From Dyella sp. M7H15-1 (lineage in GTDB: Bacteria; Pseudomonadota; Gammaproteobacteria; Xanthomonadales; Rhodanobacteraceae), in assembly GCF_004114615.1 (NCBI RefSeq), contig NZ_CP035300.1, positions 620,001 through 684,000 on the forward strand: DNA of 64,000 bases, written 5' to 3'. A model generated the notes under the pieces. It ran no database searches, had not been told where the DNA came from, and saw only the letters and a program-made list of their open reading frames with translations. This document shows, piece by piece, positions 2,170-11,678 of the stretch. Position 1 is the stretch's first letter. Each line of letters begins with the position of its first letter. The translations under genes were made by a program, and so were the position numbers.

Positions 2170-2209
2170 GGTGTTACCTTGATTTAGGTGCAAAAAGTAA
2201 CGCTTCGCG
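2170..2209 (+). repeat. Left terminal inverted repeat of the Tn3-family element
   Basis: Forty bases starting GGTGTTACCTTGATTT. Compared with the complement of 11500-11539 I count three mismatches. This length is typical of Tn3-family ends. Confidence 0.92.
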
Positions 2210-2544: not shown

Positions 2545-3389
2545 GAGCATGTCGTCATAAGATTCTGAGCCACATGACGAGGCAGCGAATTTGCACAGCG
2601 GCAAGGAAAGAGGACAGATTCTTCGCGTAGCGTGTCGCCACACCACGCCACTGTTTCAGGTACAAAAACGCATTCTCAACCAGGTGGCGATGACGATACA
2701 GGTACGTGTCGTAGTCGCGCGGCTCTTTTCGGTTTTTACGTGGCGGAATATGCGCCTGCATGCCTTGCTCATGAGCCTGCTCAACAATGGCATCACTGTC
2801 ATAACCTTTGTCGGCCATGAGATGCTCAGCAGGAATGTCTTTGATCAGTTCCGCGGCCTGCGAACAATCTGCCCGGGTACCCTCTGTAACAAGAATTCGG
2901 ACTGGCATACCATGCGCATCCACGGCCAAATGTATCTTGGTGTTGCGCCCCCTTTTGTGAGACCTATGCCCTGATTGCCGCCACGAGCTCCCGCTGCATG
3001 AGGATGAACCTTGCAGTGACTGGCATCGATCATCAGCCACTCAAAGTCCGGCTCATCCATCACACGTTCCAACAGACCTTCCCATGTGCCGTTATCGCGC
3101 CAGCGACAAAAGCGCCGATGGGTATTCTTCCAATCGCCGTACTCGGGTGGTAAATCTCGCCACGGCGCTCCGGTGCGAAGTATCCAGAACACTGCGTTGA
3201 TGAATTGCCGATTATCTTTGGCTACACGCCCCCATCGGCCCGCTTGACCCGGCAAATGGGGTTCAAGCAAACCCCATTTTTCATCGGAGATGTCATGGCG
3301 TCGATAGGCCGCAGTCACAGAGGATTCCATCCAGCAAGATTCGATGGCGGGTAGTTAACCATATTTCAACACCTCATGACGACAGGCTC
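2545..3389 (-). mobile_element. IS5-family (IS427-like) insertion sequence, copy 1
   Basis: An 845-bp element flanked by TA on both sides (2543-2544 and 3390-3391). The ends are inverted: GAGCATGTCGTCATAAGA at the left and the complement GAGCCTGTCGTCATGAGG at the right. Near-identical 845-bp copies lie at 34358-35202 and 37652-38496, which shows recent activity. This copy sits inside the Tn3-family element and disrupts tnpT. Confidence 0.95.
2555..3330 (-). CDS. IS5-family transposase, two frames joined by -1 frameshift (copy 1)
   Basis: The DDE transposase is encoded in two overlapping frames: N-terminal part 3330-2845 ('MESSVTAAYRRHDISDEKW') and C-terminal part in the frame ending at 2555. 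The second frame is -1 relative to the first, and the minus-strand heptamer A-AAA-GGG at 2956-2950 lies in the overlap, just where the homology passes from one frame to the other. Catalytic residues are visible: first D in 'LMIDASH', second D in 'MADKGYDSD', and the Y(2)R(3)E(6)K signature 'YRHRHLVENAFLYLK'. IS427-group elements are known to use such a frameshift; its use here is inferred. Confidence 0.9.
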
Positions 3390-4234
3390 TAGCGTCTCAA
3401 CGCGAGCCCGGTAAGCGGCCACGTCCTGCTGCGCCGTGGTCAGACTGGTACGGAGGGTTACGAGTTCGTGCTGATGCCGCTCCCGTTCGGTGGTGCGCTC
3501 CTTCTCCATCGCGGCCAGCCGGGTGCGCAGCCCCTTGCTCTCCTGGCGAGCGCGATCCACTTCGGCATGACCGTGATCTTCCGTTGCGCGCAGTTGCTGT
3601 GTCAGGGTCTCGCGCTCCGCGGCCGCCGTCGTTTCTTGCGCCTGGAGACGCGTAGTCACGTTGAGGAATTCGGCTTCCAGCCGTTCGTTCCGCGTTTCCA
3701 GTGCCTCGCGCTGCTGCGTTAGATCGACGAGTTGCGCCGCCTGCTGCTCGACCAGGCGTTGAATATCAGCCAGACGTGCTGCCATGGCCGTTTCAGCTTG
3801 TTGCGCCTGGGCAAGCAGCTGCTGTTGGCGCACTTCTTTCTGTTGAAGGGCCTCCCGCTCGCGATCAAGCGCAGCTCGATCGCTGGCCAGTTGCGCGCGT
3901 TCGCCGGCGACTTCGGCCTGCACGGTTTCGCGGGCCTGCTGCCAGGCCCACGCCCACCATTGTCCCGCCAGTGCTGCGATCTCAGCCGGCGCGTCGGGGA
4001 TCGTCGCTATCGCTTGGTGCGCAGTCAAGCGCGCGCCGAGCGCTTGCCACCAGAAGTCCAGCAACCGCGTGACCGTATTCGGTGAGCCGGTACCGAGGTG
4101 CGCGCGGATCCGTTCCACGGTAGGCCGCTCGCCAGCAGCGACCAGGGCATCGGCGGCGGTGTGAACCTGGGCTTCGGTGATGCCTTTGGTCATGACGGGC
4201 TTTCCTATGTGCGGCGGAGGCGGGTTTGGTGCTA

Positions 4235-4301: not shown

Positions 4302-5444
4302 ATGAAACGAAACAGCGATTTGCGGCTTCCCGCCGTGCCTCCTATCCCCGCGCCGGAGCAACTGGCCGAGGAAGCGGCTGCGGCCGTGCGGGAAATCCTG
4401 GCCGAGGTCGCCTCGGCGAATACCACGCGCAGCTACGCGAGTGCGTTGCGCTACTGCGCGGCCTGGTATCAGGGCCGCTACGGCTAGCCATTTGCGCTGC
4501 CGCTGCCCGAAGCCGTGGTGATCCAGTTCATCGTCGACCACTTGGCCCGGCGCGGCGAGACGGCGCTCGCCTGGGAGTTGCCCTCGGCGCTCGATGCCGC
4601 CTTGGTCGAGGCGGGCCTTAAACAACAGTTGGGGCCGCTCAAACTCACCACGATCAGCCATCGCCTCGCGGTGTTGTCCAAAGCTCATCAGGCGCAACTT
4701 GTCGCCAACCCATGCGAGCAACCGGCCGTCCGCCACCTGATCGCACGCGCCCGGCGCGCGGCGGTCAAGCGCGGCGAACGCCCTACCAAGAAGACCGCCA
4801 TTACCCAAATCGAGTTGGCGGCCATGCTGACCACCTGCGACAGCTCCTTGGTCGGTTTGCGCGATCGCGCCTTGCTGCTGTTCGCGTTCGCCAGCGGCGG
4901 GCGCCGGCGCAGTGAAGTGGCTGCTGCTGACATGGCGGATTTACGTCAGGTGGGTGATCGGGCGTTCGTGTACCACTTGGGGCACAGCAAGACCCAGCAG
5001 GCCGGGCCGAGTGCCACCTCGACCCCGGACAAGCCCCTCTTGGGTCCGGCGGCCGATGCGCTGGCCGTCTGGCTCGCGGCCGCTCAGCTCACCGAGGGTC
5101 CGATTTTCCGTCGGTTGTGGCGGCACCGCGTCGGCGGTGGACTTTCGCCCGCCTCGGTCGCCGCCATTGTGCAACGCCGTGCGGCGATGGCGGGACTGGA
5201 GGGGGACTTTGGGGGACACAGCCTACGCTCAGGTTTTGTCACCGAGGGTGGCCGCCAGGGCATCGCTTTGCCGGCGCTCATGGCGATGACTGAGCACCGC
5301 GCCGTGGGCAGCGTGATCGGATACTTTCAGGCCGGCGGTGTGACTGATAACCCTGCGGCACGCTTGCTCGACGATGGCATCCTAAATCCGTCGCCCGAAT
5401 CGTCCACGCCACCGGCTCAGAACAACAGCGTGCCGCGACCTTGA
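4302..5444 (+). pseudogene. tnpS: TnpS-like tyrosine recombinase with in-frame amber codon
   Basis: TnpS is the tyrosine recombinase that resolves transposition cointegrates. An N-terminal SAM-like (core-binding) segment begins at ATG 4302 ('MKRNSDLRLPAVPPIPAPEQ') and continues in the same frame to the stop at 5444. After 61 codons the frame meets TAG (4485-4487), in the sequence GGC-TAC-GGC-TAG-CCA; a single C-to-T change from CAG would explain it. The rest encodes an intact catalytic domain: the first Arg in 'FASGGRRRSE', 'HSLRSGF', and the C-terminal His and Tyr in 'EHRAVGSVIGYFQAG'. GTG codons near 4515 could re-initiate, but that product would lack most of the N-terminal DNA-binding domain. 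Confidence 0.85.
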
Positions 5445-5515: not shown

Positions 5516-6553
5516 ATGCGTCATTGGATCATTGCACTGGGCATCATAATCGTCACGGGGGCTTTTCTCCCCGTGTATGGCGCTGCGCGGACGGCGCCTC
5601 AGACCCCTGGAACAATTATTCCCCAGCCAGACGCAGACATGCAGGTATTGCGCGCCATCCTTTGGCAGCAAGATGATCGCATCGATCTGGCGAAGGCCGA
5701 GATCACGCTCGATCATCTGATCGATCCATCTGTGGACCAAGCGGCGGAGTTAAAAGCGGTTGACCATTGGGCCGATCGCGTGCGGAACCGCATCCCTGCG
5801 GGCGCTACGACTTGGGCAAAGGTGATGGCGATTTACACCACCATCTACGTGCCGGGTCCTTGGAACGACGGCAAGAAGTTTGATTACAACTTTGACGACC
5901 CCTTCGGCAAAGATGTGCATACCACGATGCTTTCCAATTACCTTGCTACACGGCGAGGTAATTGCGTGTCGATGCCGATTTTCTTTGCGATCTTGGCGCA
6001 ACGAATCGGGCTGCAGGTAACTTTGGCAACCGCGCCCAATCACCTACTGGTCAAGGTGAAGCTGGATGACGGGCAATGGAAAAACATTGAGGCCACGAGC
6101 GGCAGCACGCTGACTGATCAGGAGTACATGCAGCGATTCCAGATCACGCAGACAGCCGTCGAGAATGGGCTGTATCTGCGCCCGTTGTCCATGCGGGAGG
6201 CGGTGGTGGCCATGGCGACGCCGTTCCTGGAGGATTACGCCAAGCGCCGCACACCTGAGCAGATCATGGCCATGGCCGATTTAGCCCTAAGTTACGACCC
6301 CAAAGATGTGGGGGCCTTGATGATGAAGGCGTTGGCCTACGACAAGCAGGTGACGATTCAATACCGCAGCAAGTATCCCGATCCACGCCAGTTGAGCCCT
6401 GCCCAGCAGGCGGATTACCGCGCCTTGATGGACGGCTATTTCAAGATCGCCGATCAGCTACAAGCCATGGGCTGGCACCGACGCAGTGCGAAACAGGATG
6501 CGGAATACATGCAAGCCATTCAGAAGGCTAAAACAGCCGAAAACGGAGGTTGA
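5516..6553 (+). CDS. Exported transglutaminase-like cysteine protein
   Basis: A 345-residue protein starting at ATG 5516, chosen because it places a signal peptide ('MRHWIIALGIIIVTGAFLPV', cut near residue 22) at the N-terminus and has GGGGAGG just upstream. The middle (about 100-200 of the mature protein) resembles the transglutaminase-like/SirB1 fold: a Cys in 'RRGNCVSMPIFFAILAQRIG', a His in 'ATAPNHLLVKV' and an acidic residue in 'NIEATSG', in the order expected of a Cys-His-Asp/Glu triad. The C-terminal part looks helical and repeat-like. It is the first gene of a tight three-gene set (3-base gap, then overlap) inside the transposon. The substrate is unknown; a peptidase or a crosslinker/deamidase are both possible. 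Confidence 0.75.
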   Translation: MRHWIIALGIIIVTGAFLPVYGAARTAPQTPGTIIPQPDADMQVLRAILWQQDDRIDLAKAEITLDHLIDPSVDQAAELKAVDHWADRVRNRIPAGATTWAKVMAIYTTIYVPGPWNDGKKFDYNFDDPFGKDVHTTMLSNYLATRRGNCVSMPIFFAILAQRIGLQVTLATAPNHLLVKVKLDDGQWKNIEATSGSTLTDQEYMQRFQITQTAVENGLYLRPLSMREAVVAMATPFLEDYAKRRTPEQIMAMADLALSYDPKDVGALMMKALAYDKQVTIQYRSKYPDPRQLSPAQQADYRALMDGYFKIADQLQAMGWHRRSAKQDAEYMQAIQKAKTAENGG

Positions 6554-6556
6554 ATC

Positions 6557-7123
6557 ATGGTTAAGCAGACAACTTTGGCACTGCTGGCGCTAGCAGCATC
6601 CATATCTAGCCACCAAGCCAACGCAAGTTATGCGAAAGGCAATCCACTGACTTACGTTGACCCATCGGGTAAAGTTGCTTACGTCAATGTCAGCGGCAAC
6701 AACATTACCATCGTGCTGCCCATCGTGTTTCAGGGCGGCACCTGGGATCAGCAACAGGCCATGGCCGGGGCGATCACCGACGCCTGGAATGGACAGTTTG
6801 GGCAATACAACGTGCAAACGACCGTCGTGAACGGTTCGACGCTGACCACCCCCGTCAACACCATTCAAATCGACCCGGGTCAGAGCGATGCGCTCGGGCT
6901 TTCTCGCGTGTATGGCGATGCGATGAGTGGCAAGTGGTTCGCCAAACCGACGCGCACGTGCGGTTTGGACTACGCACATGAAGCCGGCCATTTGATGGGC
7001 CTGGGCGATCATCCGGGGACGAACCAAATCATGGACGACATCACGACCACGCCGACGGTCACTGGGGATGACATCACGTCGATCATCAACTCGCCCGTCA
7101 ACATCATTACGCACGAGCACTGA
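6557..7123 (+). CDS. Exported metzincin-like metalloprotease with Rhs-core remnant
   Basis: A 188-residue product with an N-terminal signal peptide (cut near 'ANA', residue 24). It is followed at once by 'YAKGNPLTYVDPSG', which matches the conserved end of the Rhs repeat-associated core ('..KGNPLTYVDPSG') that normally precedes variable toxin tips. The rest holds 'HEAGHLMGLGDH' near residues 142-153, a zinc-binding HExxHxxGxxH metzincin signature; a Met about 10 residues further ('NQIMDD') could be the Met-turn. A clear GGAGG lies before ATG 6557, three bases after the previous stop. The fold suggests an orphan polymorphic-toxin tip turned into an exported protease. Zinc-site assignment is strong; the Rhs origin and toxicity are inferred. 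Confidence 0.75.
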   Translation: MVKQTTLALLALAASISSHQANASYAKGNPLTYVDPSGKVAYVNVSGNNITIVLPIVFQGGTWDQQQAMAGAITDAWNGQFGQYNVQTTVVNGSTLTTPVNTIQIDPGQSDALGLSRVYGDAMSGKWFAKPTRTCGLDYAHEAGHLMGLGDHPGTNQIMDDITTTPTVTGDDITSIINSPVNIITHEH

Positions 7124-7575
7124 TGAAAGCTGCCCTGATCACCTCATTGTTTTTGACGACCAGCGCCGCGTCGGCAGCACCTGTCGTGTTCAGTAAGATC
7201 TTTGATGTTTGTGCAACGCCTGTCCATGGCGTGCACTACCACATAACTGATGGCCTGGATGCCGCGTCGGGAACGGCCAAGCAAGGCGCCGCCACGGTGA
7301 GCATCTTGATCGGGCGCCATCCGGAGCTGCCACCCGGCATCAAGAACCCATTTGGTACCACCTTGCCAACTGCGATCGTTTTGCAAGGGCAGGCGCCCAA
7401 GGCGGACGGCACTGGCAACGTGAGGTTGTATGCGTATGGCGTGGGCACGGTCAGCATGGGACCCAAGCCCTTCCAGGACCAAATTCTGATCACAGTTCAG
7501 GCCGATAGCGGTGCGATCAATCTCGCCTTGCTCGACAAAGTGGGCCACGCCCTCGTACGTTGCGGGCTGAACTGA
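7123..7575 (+). CDS. Small exported protein, possible partner or immunity protein
   Basis: A 150-residue protein whose ATG overlaps the stop of the metzincin-like gene (TGATG), implying translational coupling. It has a short signal peptide ('MKAALITSLFLTTSAASA'). The mature part is all-beta-like with only two cysteines, one near the N-terminus ('FDVCATP') and one four residues from the C-terminus ('LVRCGLN'), suggesting a disulfide. I recognise no family. The position directly after a toxin-like gene and export to the same compartment make an immunity or inhibitor role plausible, but this is inference from context only. Confidence 0.7.
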   Translation: MKAALITSLFLTTSAASAAPVVFSKIFDVCATPVHGVHYHITDGLDAASGTAKQGAATVSILIGRHPELPPGIKNPFGTTLPTAIVLQGQAPKADGTGNVRLYAYGVGTVSMGPKPFQDQILITVQADSGAINLALLDKVGHALVRCGLN

Positions 7576-7771: not shown

Positions 7772-8407
7772 TTATCGGCAATGCCCTGTCAGCAGCGACG
7801 TGACGTGCAACCGAAACTGGTCAGGGGTGAACGTCGTGATCGGTTCACGCTGCGGCCACACCTTCATGATGGCAGCTCGGAAATTGGCGGGCATACTGCC
7901 TTGCTCGGGACCAATGATGTAGGTCTGCGCGGTGGTGACCGCATAGTGCGGATACATTTGCCGCGCGACATCTTCGAACCGACCAGGATCGATGGCGTCT
8001 TCGGCAAACACCAACAAGGCCACGAGTGCACCGCACCGGTCGCAACGCACCTCTTCGACAGGGATGGTGCCGCCGGGCATCGAATGCTTTGCTGCCAGGG
8101 GCGGTGGTGGCGTACTGCTCGGGCCGCGAATAGACTCCAGCGCCGTCACAATCTCATGCGACAAGGGTTCCAATATCGCGCGCCGTTGGACAAACATCGC
8201 CTCGCGTTCGTCGCCGGCGATTTCGGTAACCACGCAGGTTTCGCCCGACGCGGTACCCGTAACGCACAGGCGTCCCAATTCACCCAGCTCGGCGTGCCGA
8301 AAAACGTAGGCGATGCCGCCCGGCAATGGATCACGACGAAAGGACACATTCGGTGGCAGTTTTAATCCTGCAGCCACTTCGGCGGGCGATTTGCGTTGGG
8401 TAGTCAT
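7772..8407 (-). CDS. Hypothetical protein encoded downstream of tnpA
   Basis: A 211-residue protein starting 39 bases after the tnpA stop on the same strand, so probably co-transcribed with it. No signal peptide or membrane segment. The N-terminal half is beta-rich, with a Pro-rich linker near residues 93-100 ('SSTPPPPLA'), then a single 'CDRCG' motif near 121-125 that could be half of a zinc site. I do not recognise the family. Its placement between the transposase and the passenger cassette suggests an accessory function of the transposon rather than a cargo trait, but nothing in the sequence proves this. Confidence 0.65.
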   Translation of the reverse strand: MTTQRKSPAEVAAGLKLPPNVSFRRDPLPGGIAYVFRHAELGELGRLCVTGTASGETCVVTEIAGDEREAMFVQRRAILEPLSHEIVTALESIRGPSSTPPPPLAAKHSMPGGTIPVEEVRCDRCGALVALLVFAEDAIDPGRFEDVARQMYPHYAVTTAQTYIIGPEQGSMPANFRAAIMKVWPQREPITTFTPDQFRLHVTSLLTGHCR

Positions 8408-8446: not shown

Positions 8447-11380
8447 TTAGCGCATGTTCCGCAGCACGGGCCTCACCGGCTGTAGGGTAGGCAACAACCG
8501 CGCCATATACCGCTCGATCGGGAACAGGAACAGCCCGCGAAAATTCACGAGTCGCTCTTGGATCGGCGCGATGTGGCGCAGGTTCTCAGGCACCGCCAGG
8601 GCCGCGATGTCCGCGGGCAACGTTGCGAGCGATTGCTGCATGCGCGCCGTCGTCCACGCCATGACGATGTTGCTCAACAAGGTAATAGACGAAGAGACGC
8701 TGCGCAGGCGTGCTTGATGACTCATTTGATGCCGCGGCACCTTGCCCGTTTCGAGCGCATGCTCCAGCACATGGACACGTTCCCCATGGTTGAGGGTGCG
8801 TAGAATTTCCCGACGGAAGTCGAAGAGCGTGAACCAGCGGCACAAATAGAGCGTCAGCAACAATCGACCGATCTGCACGCCAGCGTCGTACAGCTGCTCA
8901 CCGGCGGCGGCCGAACCGAAGCGAGACAGGATGTCGACCGCGCTGGCTTTCCCGACATGGGTCGAGGCCGCCATGCGGACCCATTCATCCCAGACTGGCT
9001 CCATCTTCTCGGGGTGTGCCCGGTTCTTGGCGATCACGCTGCGCAGTCCGTCGGGCACTGTCATCTCTGGGGTCACATATAATTTGTGCGCACTCGCATC
9101 ACGCAACCGAGGACACACATCTGTGCCTACCGATTTTCCCAGGGACATGCCGAATTCGGTTTGACCATGCGTATCCACCGCCAGTTGATTGATCGTGACC
9201 GCGCTTTGGCGAAGGACACCTTCCAACGCCACGCCCGCCTGGCGTTCACCGAGCACGATCGGTTGATCGTAGAAGATGCCCCAACGGTCATGGATGTGCG
9301 TGTAGATGCCAATGGACTTCTTCTTCGTGCGCGGATCACGGCGTGCCAGAGGGCTGCTCTTGACTGTTTCGCGGCTCATCATGTCTGCTGAGGCCAAATC
9401 GGCGCGCCCCCAGCTCTCGGCAATGGGATGGCTGTGCATGTACTCGAAGACGGTGGTATTGGCTTCGCGCAGGCGCTTTTCCTGGCCGATCCAACCCATG
9501 CTCTGGTTGACCGCATCGGCGGAGAGGCCCGGCATCATGCGTGCCGTATCGGCGGCGGACAACGCGGTGCCGTGCGCGAGAAGACCTGCATACACCAAGC
9601 GCAATTCATCGATCGAGCGCGGCTCGCGGCCCAGCAGTGTCCAACTGAAACGGGTGTGGCTGTCCACCTCCATCATGACGCCCGGCAGCTCTTCCGCCTC
9701 CATGCGTTCCATCAGCGCCTCCCGAAGCACCACCACGGCTTCCGGCACGTCCTCGGCCGGGAGTTTGGGAAGATGCACACCGTCTTTGTCCACGGTGACA
9801 TCGCCGGCCTGCGCGGTTTCAGTCAGGTTCTGGAGCTGCCGGGACACTTCCTCGACCAGAGGGCCGGTGAATTCTTTCGCATCGCGGGGCAACTTCAGGC
9901 GCGCGTAATGATGCGTCTTGCTCTTGGCCCATTCCGCCGGCGGAATCAGCATGCTTTCGCGACTGCGGAAGCTGAAGCTATGGGCGACATACACGCTGCC
10001 GTTCTTCAGGGCACGGCGTAGCGCAAGCAGCGTCGCCACCTCGAAGGCCTGGAGAGCACGTTGTCGATCGGTATCCGCGAGCATGTCGTCCCATACTTTG
10101 CCCAGGTGAACCGGTATCGCCTCAGGAAGCGCCGGTTTGCGTTGCAGATATATCTCACGCAACGCATCCAATGCCTGACGAACGGGGTGCGGCGCCACGC
10201 TCTCAAAGGGAAGCGCGCACAGCATTTTGAGCAGCGCGCGCGAATGGCGGTTGTTCTGGACCAGCAATTGTTCGCGGGTCAGGTGAGCCCGACTGAGTTT
10301 CTTGCCGCCACCGACCTGTTCCACGGCATGCAGGATCGCCGCACGCAGATCGTCTTCGCGAAGGGAGCGGTCGAGGGCTAGTTCACGCACTTCTTTGGCG
10401 AACGTAGTCAGCGTGCGCGCACGCGCTTCGGCGGATTGGACCACGGCGCGCATGCCGCTGCCCCAAAGATCCGCCACGTGTTGACGCGTCATGGCCAGCA
10501 CCTGATCCGTGGCTGTGCACAGCGCCGTCTGCAGGAAGCACGCAACTTCGATTGTCCGTCGCGTTTCCGCAATGCGCTGGCTGACGGATGGTGGTCGATC
10601 CGCCATCGCTTGGGCGTAATGACGCTTGATGTGATCCGACACCGAGGGAATGGCGTGTGAGGCGACGCCCAACTGTGTCAGATGCTGAACCCGCTCAAAC
10701 TGCTCCCGAATCTGGGGAAGCGATTGTCGGCGCGGTGCTTGTGAGAGCCACTCTTGAAAGGAAAGGCCGGAACGATGGGATTCGGCACAAGCTTGCATCC
10801 AGGTGTCCAGCACGTCAGCAGGAACATCATTGCGAAGCATCTCGCCAAGTTCATCTTCCGCAAGGGTCAACGCCACATCAATGGCGCTCTTCAAGGGACG
10901 CTCACCTTCGATGAGGATGCCGTGCTCGTACAGCCACGTTTTGACGTGCGCAATCAGACGATGACGATCAAACTCAGACAGCACTTCGACACGCAGGTGG
11001 CGTACCAGAGCGCGACGCTGGTGTTCGGACATGCGAACGAAACCGAGTGTCTCGATCGCGGTATTTTGATGCGCAAACAAGGTTGGCCGACGACGGTACA
11101 ACGATCGTAGCGATGCAATATCCGGCGTAGCGATGCCGAGCGTTTTTCCGAGATGCGTCCATAACTCGGTAGGAATCACTTTGACGGCCGCAAGGGAACT
11201 GCCCGTCATCCGGATAAAACCAATTTGCAGCGCCAAGCCAAGCCGATGTAGCGCGTCGCGCTTGGCAAGGATGGTGCGTTGCTCCTTGGGAGAGAAGGTG
11301 AAGAAGGCGTTGAGCTCGAACTGGTTCAGTTCCTTGGGGATGGACCGCAACCCAAGATAAGGCTTCTGCCAGTACTGCAT
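8447..11380 (-). CDS. tnpA: Tn3-family transposase TnpA
   Basis: The replicative transposase binds the roughly 40-bp ends and forms cointegrates. At 977 residues it is full length for Tn3-family TnpA (about 950-1020). It has the N-terminal DNA-binding region ('LNQFELNAFFTFSPKEQ') and the C-terminal DDE catalytic region, with the characteristic stretches 'ESWGRADLASADMM', 'WGIFYDQPIVLGERQAG' and 'AVDTHGQTEFGMSLGK', and 'HGERVHVLEHALETG' near the end. No internal stop. It is transcribed leftward from near the right inverted repeat; the 119 bases before it hold the promoter region. It looks functional. Confidence 0.95.
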   Translation of the reverse strand: MQYWQKPYLGLRSIPKELNQFELNAFFTFSPKEQRTILAKRDALHRLGLALQIGFIRMTGSSLAAVKVIPTELWTHLGKTLGIATPDIASLRSLYRRRPTLFAHQNTAIETLGFVRMSEHQRRALVRHLRVEVLSEFDRHRLIAHVKTWLYEHGILIEGERPLKSAIDVALTLAEDELGEMLRNDVPADVLDTWMQACAESHRSGLSFQEWLSQAPRRQSLPQIREQFERVQHLTQLGVASHAIPSVSDHIKRHYAQAMADRPPSVSQRIAETRRTIEVACFLQTALCTATDQVLAMTRQHVADLWGSGMRAVVQSAEARARTLTTFAKEVRELALDRSLREDDLRAAILHAVEQVGGGKKLSRAHLTREQLLVQNNRHSRALLKMLCALPFESVAPHPVRQALDALREIYLQRKPALPEAIPVHLGKVWDDMLADTDRQRALQAFEVATLLALRRALKNGSVYVAHSFSFRSRESMLIPPAEWAKSKTHHYARLKLPRDAKEFTGPLVEEVSRQLQNLTETAQAGDVTVDKDGVHLPKLPAEDVPEAVVVLREALMERMEAEELPGVMMEVDSHTRFSWTLLGREPRSIDELRLVYAGLLAHGTALSAADTARMMPGLSADAVNQSMGWIGQEKRLREANTTVFEYMHSHPIAESWGRADLASADMMSRETVKSSPLARRDPRTKKKSIGIYTHIHDRWGIFYDQPIVLGERQAGVALEGVLRQSAVTINQLAVDTHGQTEFGMSLGKSVGTDVCPRLRDASAHKLYVTPEMTVPDGLRSVIAKNRAHPEKMEPVWDEWVRMAASTHVGKASAVDILSRFGSAAAGEQLYDAGVQIGRLLLTLYLCRWFTLFDFRREILRTLNHGERVHVLEHALETGKVPRHQMSHQARLRSVSSSITLLSNIVMAWTTARMQQSLATLPADIAALAVPENLRHIAPIQERLVNFRGLFLFPIERYMARLLPTLQPVRPVLRNMR

Positions 11381-11499: not shown

Positions 11500-11539
11500 C
11501 GCTAAGCGTTACTTTTTACACCGAAATCAAGGTAACACC
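11500..11539 (-). repeat. Right terminal inverted repeat of the Tn3-family element
   Basis: Its complement begins GGTGTTACCTTGATTTCGGT and matches the left end with about three mismatches in 40. It is followed directly by GGGACT, the presumed target duplication. Confidence 0.92.
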
Positions 11540-11678
11540 GGGACTCGGGACTCGGGACTCGGGACTCGGGAAAAGCGAAAAGGCACCTGATCTATTGTGC
11601 AAGTGCCTTTGGCTCTTTATTGAACAGACCAAGAGCGAAAACGCCTCGCACTTGCCTCAACGCGAGTCCCGAGTCCCG
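11540..11678. repeat. GGGACTC array with facing inverted copies
   Basis: Four heptamers GGGACTC plus GGG occupy 11540-11570. Two complementary copies (CGAGTCCCGAGTCCCG) lie at 11663-11678, so the segment could fold into a long hairpin. Inside it AAAGGCAC (near 11578) and GTGCCTTT (near 11604) form a second stem. It is probably an intergenic repeat element that existed between ihfB and lapA before the transposon split its left edge. Confidence 0.65.

Follow-up and report, generated by a model that had tools for sequence, protein, structure and literature searches.

A transposon-borne gene cassette in Dyella sp. M7H15-1 that links an exported transglutaminase-like protein to a putative Rhs-derived metzincin toxin and its partner

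Results

A three-gene cassette with exported products

The window analyzed here is a stretch of 64,000 nucleotides from the complete, 3.52 Mb genome of Dyella sp. M7H15-1. It contains a Tn3-family element of 9.4 kb that holds a cassette of three genes, which encode a transglutaminase-like protein (gene 1), a short protein with a stub of an Rhs core and a metzincin tip (gene 2), and a small partner protein (gene 3). A sequence-only reading of the window had described the genes as tightly coupled and their products as exported, and both points are retained: genes 1 and 2 are separated by 3 bases, genes 2 and 3 overlap at TGATG, and each protein starts with a hydrophobic leader (Sec-type leaders were called from hydropathy and by eye). 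The single promoter-like match 5′ of gene 1 is no better than chance. The features of the locus are listed in Table 1.

Table 1 Features of the cassette and of the element that carries it
Feature	Position in window	Strand	Basis or remark
Gene 1, exported transglutaminase-like protein, 345 residues	5516..6553	+	Pfam, E 4.1e-11; hydrophobic Sec-type leader
Gene 2, 188 residues: leader, 15-residue Rhs core stub, metzincin tip	6557..7123	+	open reading frame (ORF) call, profile, alignment
Rhs core stub SYAKGNPLTYVDPSG, gene 2 residues 24-38	6626..6670	+	NCBIfam match; 31 stub ORFs
Zinc-binding motif HEAGHLMGLGD, gene 2 residues 141-151	6977..7009	+	motif reading, relatives
Gene 3, exported partner, 150 residues, C30 and C147	7123..7575	+	leader; ORF call
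Left terminal inverted repeat	2170..2209		40 nt, 93% complementary to 11500-11539
Right terminal inverted repeat	11500..11539		pairs with 2170-2209
Two overlapping ORFs like insertion sequence (IS) transposases, inside the element	2555..3330	-	named by eye
KfrA_N protein, at the tnpT position	3366..4193	-	Pfam PF11740, 1.9e-25
Tyrosine recombinase, tnpS-like	4302..5444	+	Pfam Phage_integrase, 5.5e-10, C-terminal piece
211-residue ORF, further passenger of the element	7772..8407	-	no Pfam or NCBIfam match
Tn3 transposase	8447..11380	-	NCBIfam 3.7e-200; Pfam 3e-82

Gene 2 joins the end of an Rhs core to a metzincin

The stub SYAKGNPLTYVDPSG follows the leader of gene 2 directly. The proposal that gene 2 begins with the end of an Rhs core is upheld, as residues 24-38 fit positions 61-75 of the 76-position NCBIfam model Rhs_assc_core, a match that lies below the cut-off when taken alone (14.7 bits against 32.5, E 0.033). 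When gene 2 and its relatives were combined into a profile, the N-terminal part matched the core ends of solved Rhs/Tc proteins, the best at 2.5e-15. On its own, gene 2 had no Pfam match at E ≤ 1 and no relative among the genome contigs, and its PDB sequence matches did not go below E 0.56; tblastn of genes 2 and 3 against the plasmid collection found none. Only 15 core residues are kept and no YD-repeat cage is present, and the leader abuts the stub with no PAAR or other N-terminal domain for loading into a type VI secretion system (T6SS). The PxxxxDPxG motif of the core end lies ahead of the tip as NPLTYVDPSG, and the first aspartate of the dyad that belongs to full core ends is missing. Among 31 stub ORFs from gene 1 loci (the number after dropping two false pattern matches and one carrier end), 28 have the aspartate of DPxG preceded, at a distance of 18-32 residues, by another one; the others are the window's ORF and two D. 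psychrodurans ORFs, which have a short stub in common.

The tip contains HEAGHLMGLGD and, as the Met-turn, IMD at residues 158-160, and has the characters of the metzincin fold. The zinc site had been read as HExxHxxGxxH, which needs correction to HExxHxxGxxD followed by H. Snapalysin (PDB 4hx3, 1kuh) likewise has Asp at the position of the third ligand; it has no Rhs stub, and its sequence matches the gene 2 profile at E 0.029 only. The zinc motif and the later Met are kept in most relatives of gene 2, with deviations in L052 and L147.

Relatives of genes 2 and 3

At E ≤ 0.01, and with the own genome included, gene 2 matched 24 of 233 genomes of the family, many weakly (wider stretches were inspected for most of the weak ones), and gene 3 matched 8 of 147. 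The order gene 1-gene 2-gene 3 is kept in three other genomes (L034, L035 and L036), with identities of 39-44% for gene 1, 49-54% for gene 2 and 36-38% for gene 3; gene 1 of L034 is split across two frames. Such recurrence of the order, with 39-54% identity in the first two genes, shows that the cassette is more than a chance neighborhood. The co-occurrence of gene 3 with gene 2, on which the proposed toxin-partner pairing depended, was confirmed by its presence behind gene 2 homologues in these three loci and in L038. C30, D46 and C147 of gene 3 are invariant across 12 aligned partners, and its predicted model has a mean local confidence score (pLDDT) of 88.

The linkage of gene 2 to Rhs proteins, the other point on which that proposal could have failed, is also seen. 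A gene 2 relative forms the C-terminal tip of a 1846-residue Rhs protein (L039), which is followed by a 146-residue ORF with a leader; seven mini-Rhs relatives have frames of 287-368 residues, each followed by a small partner ORF (L040-L044, L046 and L047; L042 is truncated at a contig end); and further relatives are located in Rhs tip arrays (L038 and L052). The tip need not have gained its Sec signal, as had been suggested, since Rhs proteins of these bacteria often have a leader of their own (L039, L041). The exported mini-Rhs proteins L040, L041, L043, L044, L046 and L047 consist of a leader, ~110 core residues and a metzincin tip, with a small partner alongside, and gene 1 was found beside none of these six. 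Frames of 300-400 residues with Rhs core matches are frequent among the matches listed for 27 genomes that contain gene 1.

Gene 1 is the constant part of a variable module

Gene 1 passes the Pfam family Transglut_core2 (PF13369, 43 bits against a cut-off of 23.5), and its triad C150-H176-E192 is invariant in 16 of 16 aligned relatives. As a single query it gave matches at E ≤ 1e-5 in 20 of 233 family genomes, of which seven were weak. With an alignment of relatives (E ≤ 1e-20), matches were found in 4 of 369 genomes of the class sample, 10 of 299 of the order, 4 of 349 of the phylum, and 8 of 247 of the family of genome G1074; the class, order and phylum counts include the own genome, and some genomes recur between samples. 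These low counts indicate that gene 1 is rare and patchy.

We collected 39 gene 1 loci from Gamma- and Alphaproteobacteria and curated counts and placements by eye. An ORF with a leader, an Rhs core end and a tip (a stub-tip ORF) lies within 1 kb of gene 1 in 34 of them. In 27 loci it follows gene 1 directly on the same strand, in six it lies upstream (L101, L104, L105, L106, L120 and L164), and in L103 it is divergent; the ORFs of L101 and L103 encode mini-Rhs proteins, in which the core is longer. The five loci without a stub-tip are L107, L153 (gene 1 broken), L162 and L165, which stop at contig ends, and L167, a weak gene 1 relative. The count of 39 excludes G543 (L144, E 7.5e-22, SirB1-like), the seven weak family matches (E 6.6e-8 to 6.7e-6; G219, G224, G226 and G228-G231), and the plasmid matches H3 (another Mesorhizobium copy) and H5 (without annotation). 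L115-L118 are named copies of loci within the count. Four of the seven weak matches (L111-L114) appear to lack a leader, and no stub-like ORF lies within 2.5 kb of them. A strict stub pattern, composed after examples had been seen, has a match no more than 1 kb from gene 1 in 18 of 31 loci and none in the 285.2 kb of flank beyond 3 kb. In the 27 genomes, at least 17 Rhs_assc_core matches start at model positions 40-43; among those listed, 14 adjoin gene 1 and the remaining three are all from G1154. Gene 1, which had been regarded as an incidental second enzyme, is instead the constant part, and genes 2 and 3 occupy an exchangeable slot beside it.

The content of this slot is diverse. Behind the stub, 30 tips (L122 was left out) fall into 19 BLASTP groups, so that variable tips stand behind a conserved region as in polymorphic toxins. 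Pfam families match the tip (E ≤ 0.01) in four of the 31 stub ORFs, namely TseH, NlpC/P60, Peptidase_C14 and TreTu_C, the last two weakly, and the tip of L166 is GIY-YIG-like, just under the cut-off of the model. Gene 1 of the window and of D. psychrodurans are 72% identical, yet their tips differ. A mechanical ORF listing gave a downstream ORF for 30 of 31 tips; these partner ORFs include soluble proteins with a leader, multi-span membrane proteins and, from alphaproteobacterial loci, proteins that lack a leader, and the one from Roseinatronobacter is Imm33-like. Changing tips with varied partners would show the pattern expected of toxin tips with matched immunity proteins. The tips of L045 (10148-10759) and L099 (6092-6688) share 34% identity and G-H-x-A and N-(C/D)-C-like patterns, and are LRAT- or NlpC-like by eye. 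In G1154, several pairs of stub-tip and partner lie on small contigs (L173, L174 and L175), possibly a tip array.

Two other explanations can be weighed at this point. Exported metzincins can be plain exoproteases, and all three proteins have leaders, so genes 1 and 2 might process the envelope or exoproteins of their own cell with gene 3 as a regulator of the protease. We consider this the least probable of the readings discussed here, because 19 tip groups in one slot, including the sub-cut-off GIY-YIG-like tip and the tip with an Imm33-like partner, are unfit for one housekeeping role, and the module is rare (4 of 369 genomes in the class sample). It is somewhat less improbable, and still unlikely, that the cassette is a displaced Rhs tip with its immunity gene, an orphan kept as a recombination reservoir or as spare immunity with no export of its own. 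Orphan rhs genes that lack a delivery part have been described (PMC7043789), metzincin tips are found within broken Rhs arrays (L038 and L052), a tip is cut off beside a transposase-like ORF in L037, and the stub could be retained because it offers DNA homology for exchanging tips. An orphan of this kind is hard to reconcile with the leader directly before the stub in 31 ORFs of gene 1 loci, the tight linkage to gene 1 across classes, the intact frames and the conserved zinc motif.

Rhs carriers that leave the core where the stub begins

In Neorhizobium and Rhizobium lentis, a large carrier adjoins gene 1 and leaves the Rhs core at ARYYDPAFGRF(I/V)PKDD, which in both is the point where the stub of the neighboring small ORF starts. 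The Neorhizobium carrier bears an extra, unrelated tail, and a full Rhs gene on the same plasmid has both halves in one protein. The two rhizobial carriers that leave the core where the stub begins lead us to propose, tentatively, a split Rhs system. It would perhaps consist of a large exported carrier that departs from the Rhs core at GRF(I/V)xxD and interchangeable small exported stub-tips that supply the core end, the autoprotease segment, the cut site and the toxin; the enzyme would join or mature both in the periplasm before export by a type II secretion system (T2SS), and transposon copies without a carrier would use a resident one or act alone. No truncated carrier was found in the own genome, where all 18 core matches listed reach model position 75-76, and no clear one among the matches listed for the 27 genomes, which include one match to positions 1-57 (G1154). 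A search of the own genome with a guessed DNA pattern of an Rhs core end gave no match. The own genome has at least 18 Rhs core matches in 3.5 Mb, one of which is gene 2; Rhs frames reach ~1,800 residues, and the core sites examined (L064-L068) lie at 583-597, 1156-1165, 2265-2276 and 2506-2516 kb.

Secretion genes near the module

On the Neorhizobium plasmid, a T2SS gene set lies between the full Rhs gene and the group of carrier, gene 1, stub-tip and partner. Gene 1 ends a run of T2SS genes in G1246, and in G1154 a secretin gene adjoins gene 1, while another contig has T2SS-like genes and an Rhs fragment near a stub-tip ORF. In total, gsp genes are near 3 of 13 gene 1 loci of the alphaproteobacterial type; no annotated T2SS lies within 20 kb of the Rhizobium lentis locus. 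The own genome has a GspD above the cut-off. Bcn-A, an Rhs bacteriocin of Xanthomonas perforans, requires the T2SS secretin and a small protein with a signal peptide (PMC7259588). From the T2SS genes near the module, the own GspD and the requirement of Bcn-A, our best guess is that the gene 2 product is exported by a T2SS.

The Tn3-family element and mobility of the module

The Tn3-family setting given in the sequence-only reading stands, with terminal inverted repeats and a Tn3 transposase enclosing the three genes. The cassette is not the sole set of passengers, since the 211-residue ORF and the two IS-transposase-like ORFs are also inside; the former has no Pfam or NCBIfam match and no relatives in the loci searched. 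The KfrA_N gene occupies what we take to be the tnpT position. The frame of the tnpS-like recombinase is broken by an in-frame TAG (4485-4487), and this copy may therefore resolve cointegrates poorly. GGGACT is present directly outside both inverted repeats, a weak argument for target duplication because it is part of a CGGGACT repeat. Such repeats flank the element on either side (2150-2169, 11540-11578 and 11659-11678), so a short repeat may have been its insertion site. At ~784-790 kb (L110), the same genome has a decayed relative of the left part of the element, with 90% identity for the KfrA_N protein and 91-99% for the recombinase, and only a fragment of gene 1 (94% over 33 residues).

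A second, different Tn3 element lies on a Mesorhizobium plasmid. Its 61-nt repeats (95%) enclose a resolvase, TnpA, gene 1, a stub ORF whose tip is broken and one more ORF; the resolvase extends with its end into the left repeat. In L099 of Dyella sp. ASV21, a Tn3-type transposase with a tyrosine recombinase lies on one side of the module and a KfrA_N gene on the other; a search for terminal repeats there found none at the settings used. The module is thus clearly a passenger of two different Tn3 elements and probably of a third. Those transposases are only 21-22% identical to that of the window, which fits separate captures.

Toxin-antitoxin pairs are thought to keep other Tn3 elements in the genome. 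The position of the module between recombinase and transposase genes, together with its presence in the Mesorhizobium element, would be compatible with a maintenance role, in which the exported toxin and its inhibitor retain the element. We regard this as very unlikely, as only 3 of 39 gene 1 loci have a Tn3 context, gene 3 bears no mark of instability, and the decayed copy L110 lacks genes 2 and 3 at no visible cost.

Discussion

The association described here is real, more than chance and larger than the sequence-only reading had described. Judged from sequence comparisons, the cassette is probably one copy, carried by a transposon, of a conserved polymorphic-toxin module with exported products, that is, a mobile, secreted, antibacterial toxin-immunity set with a dedicated processing or joining enzyme. 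In this toxin module, the gene 2 product would be exported by Sec and probably leave the cell through the T2SS, and its metzincin tip would cut envelope proteins of competing bacteria, while gene 3 would shield the producer within its own periplasm. Gene 1 may act on the Rhs stub in the periplasm, either cleaving it or joining it to a partner protein, and may so take over what the autoprotease does in a complete Rhs cage. Carried by the Tn3 element, the set would spread as a ready-made weapon with immunity.

If this is true, Rhs toxins need not be single giants: the tip can have a gene of its own and be a small protein that is exported by Sec, has an enzyme partner and is probably released by the type II system. 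Bacterial Transglut_core2 proteins, the function of which has been called unknown (PMC10318531), would then have a candidate role, and there would be an explanation of why Bcn-A requires its small exported ORF4. Transposons would then move complete toxin-immunity-enzyme sets between bacteria.

Comparison with known systems

The nearest studied system, compared by its description, is the T2SS-dependent Bcn-A (PMC7259588). Its locus has a 1,398-residue Rhs protein and two more small ORFs, unlike the cassette, and the word transglutaminase is absent from the main text used here. Polymorphic toxins with Rhs tips (PMC3482391) resemble the module in their variable C-terminal toxin behind a conserved part, adjacent immunity genes and metallopeptidase tips, and a Sec/T2SS class is tabulated among them. 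In those toxins, a transglutaminase domain is inside the toxin after the leader and has lost triad residues, whereas here the transglutaminase-like protein has a separate gene and keeps its triad, and the tip protein has no Rhs repeats.

In Rhs effectors of the T6SS such as RhsA (PMC8765631), the full core end has an aspartate dyad (D1324 and D1346 in RhsA) and is cut after PxxxxDPxG W/L/F. The stub of the window corresponds to this core end with PxxxxDPxG and the dyad segment, but gene 2 has no cage, PAAR or T6SS part and lacks the first aspartate. Bacterial teneurin-like proteins (PMC13018210) are likewise exported, have a YD shell and a toxic tip, and are followed by an immunity gene, and one such tip was toxic only with a signal peptide. 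They are single giant proteins, and the part of that paper used here describes no separate tip gene or transglutaminase-like gene. The combination of a dedicated transglutaminase-like gene with a separately exported stub-tip was not found in the open-licence papers searched. The parts of the module are of known kinds, namely Rhs tips, metzincins, immunity genes and Tn3 elements, and it is their combination that appears to be new.
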